Shown here in pieces: positions 2,968 to 23,446 of a DNA stretch of 23,869 bases (its first letter is position 1; the number at the start of each line of letters is the position of its first letter). Source of the DNA: a virus; IMG/VR virus record IMGVR_UViG_3300021356_000167, positions 1-23,869 of that record. The stretch is one strand, 5' to 3'. The position numbers and the translations under genes were made by a program. The notes under the pieces were generated by a model that was given only the letters and a program-made list of their open reading frames with translations, was not told where the DNA came from and did no database searches.

Positions 2968-3599
2968 TTGTTGTCTACGTCGATGCCTGCAGAAATCGTG
3001 ACTGACCCGACGATTGTCTCCCCAAAGACCACGGGGACCGGCGTCGCGGCCTTCGAGGTGTTTTGAATCCCGCTGAAGCTGTAGGAGTCCTGGCCTTGCG
3101 GATCTAGGGCTGAACCCTCAGAGGATTTGGGCGGCGTGAACCCAGTTGCCGGGCCAAGCAAGCCCACCTGTGGCGTAGGGCTCAGCATTTGCGAAACACC
3201 GCCAAGAATCAAGCTTGCACCAATCACACCCACAAGGGTGGACACAGTCAAACCAGAGGTGAGTCCAAAGGTTCCAATCGCCGCGGCGCCAAACGGGTTA
3301 ATGATTGCCACCGCAACCAAGGCAATCCCGGCGAGAATCTTTCCAAACGTCTTCCAGAATGAGCCTGCAACTACAGGAATAATTTGGATTGTCTCCGCGA
3401 CTGGGTTGTTCACCTCATCTAGATCTGCGTCGTAGTTGTCCACCACAACCCTGTAATTCCACCCGGCCATGTGCTGCTCAAGGCCTGGGAAGTTCGCGAC
3501 CAGCATCCTGATCGCCTCGCCAGCGCTGCTGACCTCTGCCAAAAATTTTCGTTGGCCTACAAATCTTGCTAGGGGGCCATATAGCTTGATTTCACGCAT
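2964..3599 (-). CDS. Tail assembly protein, lambda I-like
   Basis: 211 residues, close to lambda gpI (223). The N-terminal ~90 residues look like a ubiquitin-type fold ([18 protein letters not shown], then a helix [17 protein letters not shown]). A long hydrophobic, Gly/Ala-rich segment follows (about residues 85-150), then a Pro/Ser-rich stretch and a C-terminal strand region ([20 protein letters not shown]). These are the usual features of the family, which acts in tail tip assembly. It sits between K-like and J-like genes, overlapping both by a few bases, which supports the call. Confidence 0.9.
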
Positions 3600-4305
3600 C
3601 GCACCGAAGCACCTTGCCCGTGCATTGTAGAAGCCATCCAGAAGAATCTCCCAGGATGTCCCGGCTAGACAGCCTGCCCCTCAGGTGATGCAACAGGTAG
3701 CCATCGCCAACGTAAACGCCAACGTGGTTCAGCTTGTTGGACTCGATCGCCATTAGCAAGGCGTCGCCCTTCTGCATGTCCTCAACATCCACTTGCCTAA
3801 AGCCAATCTCTTTCCAGCACTCGTCAAACATCGGCGCAGCGTTGAACGCATCAATCGAGACCGGCCGATCCCAGTCCCTCAGCTGAAGGCCCTGCTCGGC
3901 GTACCAATCCCGAACCAGCGTCCAACAATCGCTCACGCCCCAGACCCACTGGCGGCCAATCAGCGGCGCCTTGTAGCCAGTTGGCTCAAGCTGGCCCCAC
4001 TCCTCTGTCTTGGGGTTGACGATAAACCAAGGAAGCTCCGATTTTTCGCAAGCTACCTTGTCAGCATCGCTGGGCTCCGGTTTTGAGATTGGATGGCTAT
4101 GGACGACTGCCACGACTTCACCCTGGTCTTCCGCGGCGGCGTAATCGACTGGATCGAGGACAAAGAAATCGTTTTCATCAGCCAGGTTTTTACATGGCCA
4201 ATACCTCTCGCGGCCTTTGACGATGACGAGTAAACCGCAAGCCTCTCTCGGGTCCTCCTGCTTCGCATGAGCCAGTGCCTTGGCTCTAGACGTGGCGTTC
4301 ATCAC
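3592..4305 (-). CDS. Tail tip assembly protein, lambda K-like: JAMM plus NlpC/P60 peptidase
   Basis: 237 residues with two domains. Residues ~1-110 are a JAB/MPN (JAMM) metalloprotease-like domain: Glu21, His69-Ser-His71, then Ser79 and Asp82, which fits the JAMM pattern HxH-x7-SxxD. Residues ~115-237 are an NlpC/P60-type peptidase: catalytic Cys127 in WGVSDCWTL, His195 in NHVGVY, and His207 or His208 as third polar residue. In lambda-like phages this protein is needed for tail tip assembly, and the NlpC/P60 domain may cut cell-wall peptides during entry. All catalytic residues appear present. It overlaps the L-like gene upstream and the I-like gene downstream. Confidence 0.93.
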
Positions 4306-21105: not shown

Positions 21106-21915
21106 CTAGAAGGGGTCGCCTTCCTGGGCGCCAGGATGGGCGAGGGCAACGGGCTTGGCTGATGGTGTTGTGGCAGTTTCTAGGAAGTCCTCGAAGCGTC
21201 CATCGCGCAGCCAGCGGAAGCACTCGGGGTAGTTAGCCGCGAAGCCGCCTGCGCGTTCAATCCTGGCCCGATCCTTAAGCGAGCGGGTTAGGGCGTCTTG
21301 CAGGCGCTCCTGGGTGGCGCGTGGCAGCTTTTTGTACTCGGCCCATGCCTTGGGCTTGGACTGGCTTGAGGCTCTGCAAGGAATTTTTCTGTACTGCTGC
21401 CAAAAGGCCAGGAAGCCTTCGGAGTAGTCGGATTTTTGGCGCTTTTGGCCTTTTGCAGCTTTTAAGGCTGTTTTTAGTTCTTCTGTATTTAGTTCTCTTG
21501 TATTTAATTCGGCGGCATCTCCTGCCGGGGGGTCCGGCATCTCCTGCCTAGGGGTACTGCATTTCGTGCCGGGGGGTACGGCAGACGCTGCCGGGGGGTC
21601 TAAGGGCGGGGGAGCGACATTGGCCAGGTGATTGACGGTGACTCGGTAGAGGTTCGTGCAGCAATCACCTCTCTCGTTTCGGCGTGCTTCGCGTTGGAGT
21701 AGCCCCATGGATTCCAACTGCCCAACAACAGCCCGAGCAGTGCGGACAGAAACACACGCACCGTCAGCGATGGTTTTGATCGAGGGCCAGCAGTCAGCAT
21801 TGGAACCGGCGAAGGTTTGGATAACCCAAAGGACCGCCAGTTGGTTTGGCTGAAGGGTGCCTCGGATTGCTGTCGGCAGTGCCGTGAAGGGCACGCCTTG
21901 CGGGACGAAAGACAT
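21106..21915 (-). CDS. Replication initiator, lambda O-like architecture, with internal origin
   Basis: 269 residues. A winged-helix DNA-binding domain occupies ~15-95 (LQPNQLAVLWVIQTFAGSNA, then WPSIKTIADGACVSVRTARA and VVGQLESMGLLQREARRNER, wing to NLYRVTVNH), matching the HTH_36 type common in phage initiators. A low-complexity linker (~100-160) rich in Pro, Gly, Ala and then Glu-Leu-Asn-Thr repeats is encoded by an iteron-like array and an AT-rich array. The C-terminal part (EGFLAFWQQYRKIPCR, KAWAEYKKLPRATQERL, AANYPECFRWLRDGRFEDFL) is the usual end of such initiators and may bind a helicase loader. The layout equals lambda O: DNA-binding N-domain, origin in the middle, interaction domain at the end. 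No P-like loader or helicase is visible. Confidence 0.82.
   Translation of the reverse strand: MSFVPQGVPFTALPTAIRGTLQPNQLAVLWVIQTFAGSNADCWPSIKTIADGACVSVRTARAVVGQLESMGLLQREARRNERGDCCTNLYRVTVNHLANVAPPPLDPPAASAVPPGTKCSTPRQEMPDPPAGDAAELNTRELNTEELKTALKAAKGQKRQKSDYSEGFLAFWQQYRKIPCRASSQSKPKAWAEYKKLPRATQERLQDALTRSLKDRARIERAGGFAANYPECFRWLRDGRFEDFLETATTPSAKPVALAHPGAQEGDPF
21471..21515. repeat. AT-rich 15-bp tandem repeats (candidate DNA unwinding element)
   Basis: Three 15-base units: TTTTTAGTTCTTCTG, TATTTAGTTCTCTTG and TATTTAATTCGGCGG. They code on the minus strand for ELNTR-ELNTE-ELKTA-like pentads. They lie next to the iterons and continue a T-rich stretch from about 21431, in a window that is otherwise GC rich. 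The place beside the iterons fits a duplex-opening region. Confidence 0.75.
21523..21605. repeat. Four iteron-like direct repeats, 22-bp spacing
   Basis: Units start at 21523, 21545, 21567 and 21589, exactly 22 bases apart. Each is a 17-base imperfect palindrome: TGCCGGGGGGTCCGGCA, TGCCTAGGGGTACTGCA, TGCCGGGGGGTACGGCA, and TGCCGGGGGGTC with a decayed right arm. The period of 22 is not a multiple of three, so the encoded amino acids differ from unit to unit; the repeat is kept at DNA level. Likely binding sites of the encoded initiator. Confidence 0.85.
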
Positions 21916-21951: not shown

Positions 21952-21962
21952 GCAGTGGGTAG

Positions 21963-21989
21963 GCCGGCTCTTACCAAGCCGGCTTTTTT
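21963..21989 (+). terminator. Terminator-like hairpin directly before the RusA-like start codon
   Basis: GCCGGCT at 21963-21969 pairs with AGCCGGC at 21977-21983 (seven pairs, seven-base loop) and is followed by six T that touch the ATG at 21990. The orientation stops plus-strand transcription. It leaves no ribosome binding site for the downstream gene. Confidence 0.7.
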
Positions 21990-22406
21990 ATGATCGAAAT
22001 TCGGATCGACGGAATCGAACCGGCTCCGCAAGGCTCGAAGGTCAGAACCCGTTTTGGGATGCGCGAAGCATCCGAGCGTGTGGCGCCTTGGCGGGACGCT
22101 GTCAGATCGGAGGCGTTAGCAGCAACAACGGCTCTGATCGAGAGCGCTTGCCGAGTGGACGTCGAGTTTCGATTTCGACGGCCTGAGGGGCACTATGCCG
22201 CCAGTGGCAAATTGCGTCCATCAGCACGTTTGCACTACACCGTGAAACGCAATGACATTGACAAGTGCTGTAGGTCGCTCCTCGATGGATTGACTGGGTC
22301 GGCCCTGGCCGAGGACTGCCTAGTGGTGGAGCTGCACGCCAGTCAGCGGTACTGCGAGCGGGACGAACGACCGGGTGCTCTTGTGACGATCCAGGAACTG
22401 ATCTAA
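21990..22406 (+). CDS. rusA: RusA-like Holliday junction resolvase
   Basis: 138 residues, similar to RusA (120). N-terminal strand and PAPQGSKVRTRFG (substrate-binding loop region), strand DVEFRFRRPEGHYAASGKL, then the core KRNDIDKCCRSLLDGLTGSA with Asp89 and Asp91, then Asp109 (AEDCLVVELHASQRY). These match the three catalytic acids of RusA that bind Mg2+. The enzyme resolves branched DNA during recombination and before packaging. It is divergent from the initiator. The only start is ATG at 21990, directly after the T run of a hairpin, with no Shine-Dalgarno sequence. Confidence 0.88.
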   Translation: MIEIRIDGIEPAPQGSKVRTRFGMREASERVAPWRDAVRSEALAATTALIESACRVDVEFRFRRPEGHYAASGKLRPSARLHYTVKRNDIDKCCRSLLDGLTGSALAEDCLVVELHASQRYCERDERPGALVTIQELI

Positions 22407-22466
22407 TACCCACAACGAGCCCACCATTTCGGGGCAATACTTGGGTCAGTTCAGGCAATCACCCCG
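22381..22466 (+). promoter_or_regulatory. Leader repeat copy 1 (promoter plus conserved 5' leader)
   Basis: Overlaps the last 26 bases of the resolvase gene. TTGTG and, 16 bases on, TCTAAT (5 of 6 with TATAAT; it includes the resolvase stop codon). Then the shared blocks CCCACAAC, CCACCA, GGCAATACT, TCAGTTCA and CACCCC end just before the ATG at 22467. Copy 1 lacks the GCACAA arm of the inverted repeat present in copies 2 and 3. Confidence 0.68.
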
Positions 22467-22697
22467 ATGCTCAGCCCTCTCGCCGTCATCAACGCCACCA
22501 TCGCTACCGGCCTCCCCGAGGGCTGGGAGCACTCCGAAGCCGCCCACGGCTTCTTCGGCCCCGACCTCGCCATGGTCGAAGCCAAGCCCACCCGCCGCGG
22601 CAACTGGGTCTGGGAGGCCACCACCGCCGAGCTGGAGTTCAAGAGCTTCGGCCCCACCAAGATCCGCGAAGCCATGGCCTGGGCGCAGGCCAACTGA
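22467..22697 (+). CDS. Small protein of unknown function (leader cassette 1)
   Basis: 76 residues: LSPLAVINATIATGLPEGWE, FFGPDLAMVEAKPTRRGNW, WEATTAELEFKSFGPTKI, ending REAMAWAQAN. Two Trp-containing strand segments suggest a small alpha/beta fold. Codons end mostly in C or G. The frame is preferred to antisense frames because it begins exactly at the end of the shared leader and stops just before a strong terminator. No Shine-Dalgarno sequence. Family not recognised. Confidence 0.75.
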   Translation: MLSPLAVINATIATGLPEGWEHSEAAHGFFGPDLAMVEAKPTRRGNWVWEATTAELEFKSFGPTKIREAMAWAQAN

Positions 22698-22699
22698 AC

Positions 22700-22723
22700 C
22701 GAGGGGCTCCGGCCCCTTTTTTT
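22700..22723 (+). terminator. Rho-independent terminator after the first cassette gene
   Basis: GGGGC-TCCG-GCCCC (five G-C pairs, four-base tetraloop of good stability) is followed by seven T at 22717-22723, three bases after the stop codon. The last T bases are also the start of the next leader repeat. Confidence 0.85.
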
Positions 22724-22806
22724 GTGCCAACTGCAGAAGCTGCACAATCCCCACAACAAGGGCACCATCCAGGAGCAATACTGGTCTCAGTTCAGACAAC
22801 CACCCC
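22722..22806 (+). promoter_or_regulatory. Leader repeat copy 2 (promoter plus conserved 5' leader)
   Basis: TTGTGC at 22722 and GCACAA at 22742 are inverted arms 14 bases apart; the second arm overlaps CACAAT, a -10-like box 15 bases after TTGTGC. The first 36 bases differ from copy 3 at only two positions. Shared blocks CCCCACAAC, CACCA, GCAATACT, TCAGTTCA and CAACCACCCC follow and end at the ATG. Confidence 0.75.
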
Positions 22807-23118
22807 ATGACCACCCCTGCACGCAAACTGACTGCTATCGCTGAGAACGGCCAGGTCTTCACCCGTAAGACCAGTCGCACCTACACCCATGCCGTCTACG
22901 TCGAAACCACCTACAGCGACGGCGAGGTGGTGAACAGCAACCCCCGGTGGACCGGCCGGCCTGACCTGGCAGAGAAGAACCTAGCCGAGCTTTCAGAGTA
23001 CGCCGCCCGCAAGGAAGGCCAAGAGTTTCGGCTATGGGACATGCAGAAAGGTGTCTGGATTCCGACCGGCCGGTTTTACGCCAAGGCTCGCGCCATTGCG
23101 GTTCCCGTGAGCGACTGA
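22807..23118 (+). CDS. Small protein of unknown function (leader cassette 2)
   Basis: 103 residues. Strand-rich start (KLTAIAENGQVFTRKTSRTY, THAVYVETTYSDGEVVNSN), then RWTGRPDLAEKNLAELSEYA and a Trp/Phe end region (FRLWDMQKGVWIPTGRFYAK). The ATG at 22807 is chosen because it stands right after the leader; an alternative frame from a TTG at 22441 crosses the first cassette gene and its terminator and is rejected. No Shine-Dalgarno sequence. Family not recognised. Confidence 0.78.
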   Translation: MTTPARKLTAIAENGQVFTRKTSRTYTHAVYVETTYSDGEVVNSNPRWTGRPDLAEKNLAELSEYAARKEGQEFRLWDMQKGVWIPTGRFYAKARAIAVPVSD

Positions 23119-23135
23119 GGGCCAGGCCCGCGGGA

Positions 23136-23218
23136 TTGTGCCAACTGTAAAAGCTGCACAATCCCCACAACCAGCCCACCAAAACAGGCAATACTTAGCT
23201 CAGTTCACAACCACCCCA
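23136..23218 (+). promoter_or_regulatory. Leader repeat copy 3 (promoter plus conserved 5' leader)
   Basis: TTGTGC at 23136 and GCACAA at 23156 have the same 14-base spacing as in copy 2, with the -10-like CACAAT overlapping the second arm. The same downstream blocks follow (CCCCACAAC, CCCACCA, GGCAATACT, TCAGTTCA, ACCACCCC), ending one base before the ATG. It begins 17 bases after the stop of the previous gene. Confidence 0.75.
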
Positions 23219-23446
23219 ATGAACCTGATTACCCAAGAGACCGAGACCTTCTTCACCGTCACCACTGAGAAGGGCACCGACGTCGGCGTTGCCTTTCACG
23301 GCTGGGGCGCCGTCAGCATCTACATCCAGTCCAAGGGCCTTCGCTCCATGCCCCGCGGCCGTCAGTTCAAGAACCTGGCCGAGGCTGCTAAGGCTTACAA
23401 GTCCGCCGAGGTCAAGTCCGCCCTTCGCGCCCTGATGGAGGCCTGA
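23219..23446 (+). CDS. Small protein of unknown function (leader cassette 3)
   Basis: 75 residues: TQETETFFTVTTEKGTDVGV, AFHGWGAVSIYIQSKGLRSM, PRGRQFKNLAEAAKAYKSAE, then VKSALRALMEA. Two or three strands followed by helices rich in Ala/Lys. Start at the end of the leader repeat. It heads a short operon: the next gene begins four bases after its stop. Family not recognised. Confidence 0.78.
   Translation: MNLITQETETFFTVTTEKGTDVGVAFHGWGAVSIYIQSKGLRSMPRGRQFKNLAEAAKAYKSAEVKSALRALMEA

Follow-up and report, generated by a model that had tools for sequence, protein, structure and literature searches.

Probable early-type promoter/leader cassettes that double as gene-exchange joints in a siphophage of picocyanobacteria

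In phage T4, many small early genes each have their own strong promoter. The cassettes reported here resemble this arrangement in giving many small genes one putative promoter each. They differ in that leaders of the TCAGTTCA class (see below) lack a Shine-Dalgarno (SD) sequence, and we know of no upstream dyad of this kind in T4. A novel element reported by Doron et al. 2016 (ISME J 10:1437) reportedly controls the early genes of cyanophage Syn9, and similarly those of P-TIM40, and is said to be conserved among T4-like cyanophages. The present analysis counts 15 of its own promoters in Syn9, and the two are probably the same promoter.

The nearest described kind is the promoter-early stem-loop (PeSL) cassette of T4-type phages (Arbiol 2010 and Comeau 2014, as cited in PMC4503421). 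In the passages of PMC4503421 that deal with it, an early promoter and a stem-loop are repeated between small variable genes, and genes are exchanged there by recombination. A literature search for the octamer TCAGTTCA together with the word cyanophage found no occurrence in searchable papers. The sequence-only reading of this locus recognised no described system. This stands in that no identical system was identified, but PeSL cassettes, as those passages present them, and the reported early-gene element of T4-like cyanophages are similar in kind. As far as can be told, the presence in siphophages, the classes of start sequence and the cassette-by-cassette exchange of genes are new.

The DNA analysed is a stretch of 23,869 nucleotides from an uncultivated-virus record, hereafter the window. 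Its TerL is 59-63% identical to the terminases of KBS-S-2A, S-H1 and MED4-184, phages of Synechococcus WH7803 and Prochlorococcus MED4, and by this sequence similarity the contig is a siphophage of picocyanobacteria. Megablast against isolated phages gave no match, and comparison with six T4-like cyanophages found no shared protein at E 1e-4. S-H1 has few ORFs in common with the T4-like cyanophages, mostly at low identity. Unlike the carriers of PeSL cassettes, the window is thus a siphophage and not a T4-type myophage, as seen from TerL and from the lack of proteins in common with T4-like cyanophages. The cassettes differ as well: a dyad appears to replace the -35 region, a short leader is part of the repeat, and no terminator adjoins copies 1 and 3. 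A terminator does adjoin copy 2, and a covarying stem-loop is found in part of the wider family. Exchange breakpoints at the cassette are a point of likeness, seen here in a 402-bp insert and in seven gene families after rusA.

Two further features lie upstream in the window. Directly upstream of the start codon of the rusA-like gene is a strong terminator-like hairpin with a T-run (21961-21989). At 21515-21599, a lambda O-like replication gene encoded by the minus strand contains three to four direct repeats of 22 bp (GCATCTCCTGCCGGGGGGT...), which may be origin iterons like those of lambda.

One control element is found three times in the window, at 22381-22466, 22722-22806 and 23136-23218, and each copy stops directly before an ATG (22467, 22807 and 23219). 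It is composed of a 24-bp dyad (consensus TGTGMCAGTTNNNNAACTGKCACA), a -10 box that begins 53-54 bp past the first dyad base, the octamer TCAGTTCA 4 bases beyond the -10 box, and a leader without SD sequence. Leaders are 17-19 nt in the window copies, slightly shorter in copy 3 than in the others. The first A of TCAGTTCA is the predicted transcription start, given its spacing from the -10 box. The features are:

22382-22405, + strand: copy 1 dyad TGTGACGATCCAGGAACTGATCTA, degenerate, overlapping the end of the rusA-like gene (score 12/18 at -64 from TCAGTTCA; 54 bp before the -10 box)
22436-22441, + strand: copy 1 -10 box AATACT (TATA(C/A)T is the consensus here in the alignment of 243 copies)
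22446-22453, + strand: copy 1 TCAGTTCA, with predicted start A at 22448 (from -10 spacing) and leader 22448-22466 without SD sequence
22467-22697, + strand: gene behind copy 1, 76 aa, function unassigned (ORF; sister contig L026 has a homologue of 99% identity at this slot)
22701-22722, + strand: intrinsic terminator of gene 1, GAGGGGCTCCGGCCCCTT plus a T-run that ends at 22723, adjoining the copy 2 dyad (-14.1 kcal/mol)
22723-22746, + strand: copy 2 dyad TGTGCCAACTGCAGAAGCTGCACA (score 13/18 at -64; composite dyad and -10 score 22.6)
22777-22782, + strand: copy 2 -10 box AATACT (alignment consensus, composite score)
22787-22794, + strand: copy 2 TCAGTTCA, predicted start 22789, leader 22789-22806 (core match, alignment)
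22807-23118, + strand: gene behind copy 2, 103 aa, family F2 (ORF; the homologue in contig L400 lies directly behind rusA)
23137-23160, + strand: copy 3 dyad TGTGCCAACTGTAAAAGCTGCACA (score 13/18 at -63; composite score 22.2)
23190-23195, + strand: copy 3 -10 box AATACT (alignment consensus, composite score)
23200-23207, + strand: copy 3 TCAGTTCA, predicted start 23202, leader 23202-23218 (core match, alignment)
23219-23446, + strand: gene behind copy 3, 75 aa (ORF)
22409-22426, 22750-22767 and 23164-23181, + strand: block CCCACAACnAGnnCACCA between dyad and -10 box, common to the three copies (window comparison)

The core GCAATACTnnnnTCAGTTCA has exactly three occurrences in the window, where 0.14 are expected at up to 3 mismatches, and none of 100 shuffles reached three. 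Coordinates and core count agree with the sequence-only reading, which had described a repeat of about 85 bases before the three genes. Its two differences between copies 2 and 3 over the first 36 positions were counted again, the window leaders do lack an SD sequence, and the genes served are unrelated as it had said, their three proteins being dissimilar. The -10-like box that it reported is present (AATACT at 22436, 22777 and 23190), but the inverted repeat that it placed over this box, TTGTGC...GCACAA, sits about 30 bp upstream of it. AATACT is an imperfect match to the -10 consensus, and a search of the window region for a sigma-70 -10 box paired with a -35 hexamer 16-18 bp away found none. 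Copy 1 has lower identity over its first 25 bases because the end of the rusA-like gene lies there (stop codon 22404-22406); in rusA-anchored relatives a dyad is present at the same place. None of the three window proteins had a match in Pfam or PHROG.

Our reading is that the copies are self-contained early-type promoter/leader cassettes, and also gene-exchange joints, in a picocyanobacterial siphophage, with a probability of roughly 0.78. Promoter activity, the start site, early timing and activation rather than repression through the dyad are what we infer from this layout.

Pattern scans of IMG/VR gave at least 323 unique TCAGTTCA copies with an ORF start after them, usually 9-16 nt past the octamer. 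Among the matches listed, 243 non-redundant copies were kept after filtering and removal of similar ones, and these precede about 104 protein families (clusters). Such a consensus search with a list of the genes behind it had been proposed at the outset, and was run here on phage DNA. The families include AAA-ATPase, GP88 and weakly ArdA-like anti-restriction proteins, and most are unnamed. Most of the copies listed are on T4-like cyanophage contigs and a few in siphophages related to the window, where contigs were classed by their resemblance to a limited panel of reference phages. An exact scan for one leader form, TANNNTNNNNTCAGTTCACACCAC, in one genome per bacterial species gave no cyanobacterial match. 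A 3.9-kb contig in a MAG labelled Rhodobacteraceae (RGAJ01000223.1) contains several cassettes typical of T4-like cyanophages, and is by its sequence probably a misbinned cyanophage fragment.

The concern that only these three copies exist anywhere, or that homology extends into the coding regions, is not borne out: hundreds of copies are found elsewhere, and similarity stops at the ATG. On both counts we regard as refuted, and give next to no weight to, the idea that the three copies are a recent functionless tandem duplication of intergenic DNA. The window copies are recent relatives of each other, as the private block CCCACAACnAGnnCACCA suggests and as follows from the rarity of CCCACAAC, present in only 3 of the 243 family members among the matches listed. 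Against a mere duplication, the duplicated part ends at the ATG, and the same dyad, spacing, -10 box and octamer recur in phages otherwise completely different in sequence.

In the alignment of 243 copies (among the matches listed), a TATA(C/A)T box lies 4 bases before TCAGTTCA, and the leader between octamer and ATG is 86% A or C. The likeness to a bacterial sigma-70 promoter lies in the -10 box and the spacing of the predicted start, 6-8 bp downstream, where the conserved A of TCAGTTCA is found. The cassette differs in having no -35/-10 pair in the window, and only 10 of 114 isolate promoters have a TTGAC -35. A dyad score of at least 11 was reached in 119 of 179 non-redundant upstream regions, against 9.9 expected from shuffles (among the matches listed), with a consensus derived from the same sequences that were later scored; Syn9 and Syn1, which have no TCAGTTCA, are independent of that set. 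Among these 119 dyads, 113 are located at -66 to -62. The consensus TGTGMCAGTTNNNNAACTGKCACA, compared by eye, matches neither the NtcA box (GTA-N8-TAC) nor the Pho box (CTTA-N7-CTTA), in the patterns used by PMC3037559, where 16 cyanomyophages were compared and sigma-70, T4-late, Pho and NtcA sites were searched.

Pairing of the dyad arms is possible, with a fold of -13.0 kcal/mol (z -2.2) for copy 3. This would suit a role as RNA hairpin, be it a terminator, a processing site or an antitermination signal, in place of a protein-binding site. Copy 2 folds no better than shuffles, no Rfam family matches the element, and the spacing between dyad and -10 box is constant. The covariance analysis suggested by the sequence-only reading gave a divided answer. 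Covariation is absent between the arms of the dyad (mean stem 3.26, and 3.25 when permuted), so it is the sequence and not an RNA stem that is conserved. Part of the family has another stem-loop, GC-rich and located at -40 to -19, that does covary, with 51 stems of at least 6 bp against 9.2 permuted, and that is followed by a T-run in 14 of 62, as the terminator of a previous gene would be. This stem-loop speaks for RNA structure in the family, but it is a separate element, absent from the window copies. An RNA hairpin at the upstream inverted repeat was rejected as the main reading, as arms permuted between sequences pair equally well, and we hold it to be quite improbable.

We then consider the element in phage isolates, scanned with a matrix of dyad and -10 box that ignores the start sequence, with reversed sequence as control. 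Loci with TCAGTTCA served to train the matrix, some of them from S-PM2, S-RSM4 and S-SRM01; Syn9 and Syn1, without octamer, are independent. All eight Synechococcus/Prochlorococcus myophages scanned have between 15 and 25 composite promoters, with 0 in the reversed control: S-PM2 25, S-SKS1 24, S-CRM01 22, S-SRM01 19 (40 kb scanned), S-RSM4 17, Syn1 17, P-SSM2 17 and Syn9 15. For siphophages the counts are 8 in S-H1, 1 in KBS-S-2A and 4 in the window (the three copies and a weak one), again with 0 in the control. The same scan gave 0 in Ma-LMM01 (a Microcystis myophage), three podophages, siphophages S-CBS1 to 4 and MED4-184. The element recurs with the same architecture and a fixed spacing: the distance from dyad to -10 box peaks at 53 and 54 (20 and 15 sites), with about 1 site at most other distances.

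By the octamer itself, S-PM2 has eight TCAGTTCA copies within 2.5 kb on one strand, at 22079-24593 (reversed-pattern control 1), and S-SRM01, S-RSM4, S-SKS1, S-CAM1 and S-H1 have one or two convincing copies each. According to PMC4503421 the S-PM2 ORFanage has few PeSLs; these eight copies are unmentioned in the relevant passages of that paper. In S-PM2 (NC_006820), ORFs behind TCAGTTCA promoters at 22097-24058 have no annotated CDS at their starts, for example MTRYNPNVYEQQ, MTYQTRQIL, MTNAIAVQP and MTNTALDYNGW, and a minus-strand hypothetical is annotated over one of them. S-SRM01 (NC_070963) contains, at about 90.3 kb, an unannotated 100-aa ORF behind a cassette that resembles the largest cassette family (MFTSLT...).

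Several start sequences recur in the isolates, with TCAGTTCA the commonest, and since others are common the octamer itself is not essential. S-CRM01 has its own repeated cassette, TATTGTagctACATAAGGaaagg, before four genes, with a hairpin GGTCC...GGACC upstream and a purine-rich, SD-like leader. Syn9 has its own repeated start sequence, TATTCTataaGAGTCAAA, with the same dyad upstream in at least two cases. SD-like 4-mers are found in 23 of 243 TCAGTTCA leaders (among the matches listed), against 33 of 95 long S-PM2 ORFs. In isolate leaders found without reference to the octamer they reach 42 of 114, which makes the lack of an SD sequence a property of the TCAGTTCA subclass. The octamer and A/C leader could, besides the promoter, be mainly a convergent 5'-terminal mRNA signal for translation or stability. 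The leaders are nearly unstructured when folded, and TCAGTTCA with its A/C leader persists while the region between dyad and -10 box varies freely. The many other start sequences behind the same dyad and -10 box argue that no single 5' end is required, and this role seems unlikely to us.

Genes are exchanged at the cassette borders. Across 13 siphophage contigs anchored on the rusA of the window, genes of 21 families stand behind 35 cassettes in all. The slot that follows rusA is occupied by any of seven different families, depending on the contig, and families F8, F9 and F10 are at differing positions in different contigs. Sister contig L026, about 92% identical to the window, has 402 extra bp (3226-3627) with a 68-aa gene, placed exactly between the gene 1 terminator and the copy 2 dyad and opening with a degenerate copy of the cassette. 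Beyond this segment, L026 has one more extra gene, which encodes 80 aa. The picture of accessory genes shuffled behind a common element, put forward from the window's letters, is thus borne out by the rusA slot, the relocating families and this insert at a cassette boundary. The same L026 segment also contains a broken second copy of the start of its own gene, with CAGTGCTAGACGCCTTTCGTTCCAGCCACACCG twice, a duplication that suggests repeated insertion at this joint. Behind the cassettes, no gene was found common to siphophages and myophages, and gene flow between the two was rejected for this reason. The element could therefore be a separate convergence in unrelated phages.

The dyad may be bound by a phage-encoded regulator and not a host protein, for instance a repressor that shuts early genes off later. 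The element has so far been found only in phages, and the exact TANNNTNNNNTCAGTTCACACCAC scan, which covers one leader form, had no cyanobacterial match. Weighing against this, first-acting promoters need a factor already in the cell, and dyad spacing is the same in all these phages even though the window and six T4-like cyanophages have no protein in common and S-H1 has few. A regulator protein common to these phages was rejected on the absence of common proteins between the window and the T4-like isolates. We find a phage regulator rather unlikely. A host protein on the dyad is somewhat favoured, because phages with almost no common proteins have the same dyad and early promoters have to function as soon as the phage DNA enters. 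More tentatively, and a little short of even odds, one picocyanobacterial DNA-binding protein would recognise the dyad, and unrelated phage families would exploit it as an on-switch for their earliest genes.

For the early-type cassette, the mechanism would be as follows. Host RNA polymerase with the main sigma factor would use the -10 box, and in most copies the dyad would stand in for the -35 hexamer, with its centre about 54 bp upstream of the start and its distance to that box constant. A dimeric DNA-binding protein on the dyad would help to recruit polymerase. Transcription would begin at the first A of TCAGTTCA. The leader of the resulting mRNA would be short (roughly 15-22 nt), rich in A and C and unstructured, and in the TCAGTTCA class translation would proceed without SD pairing. 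Each gene would be transcribed on its own. With one cassette per gene, gene and cassette would form a complete unit, often with a terminator just upstream, and the repeated cassette would act as a joint for gene gain, loss and reordering.

If so, the cassette is a label, readable from DNA letters, for genes probably expressed first in Synechococcus and Prochlorococcus infection. It groups about 104 mostly unnamed families among the matches listed, and points to ORFs missing from reference annotations. It also extends gene-by-gene exchange at a promoter joint to phages outside the T4 type. Siphophages and myophages with almost no protein similarity have the same cassette, which makes testable which host protein starts infection. 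Lastly, if a single picocyanobacterial protein does serve unrelated phages as that on-switch, any gene placed behind a cassette would be a candidate for host takeover.
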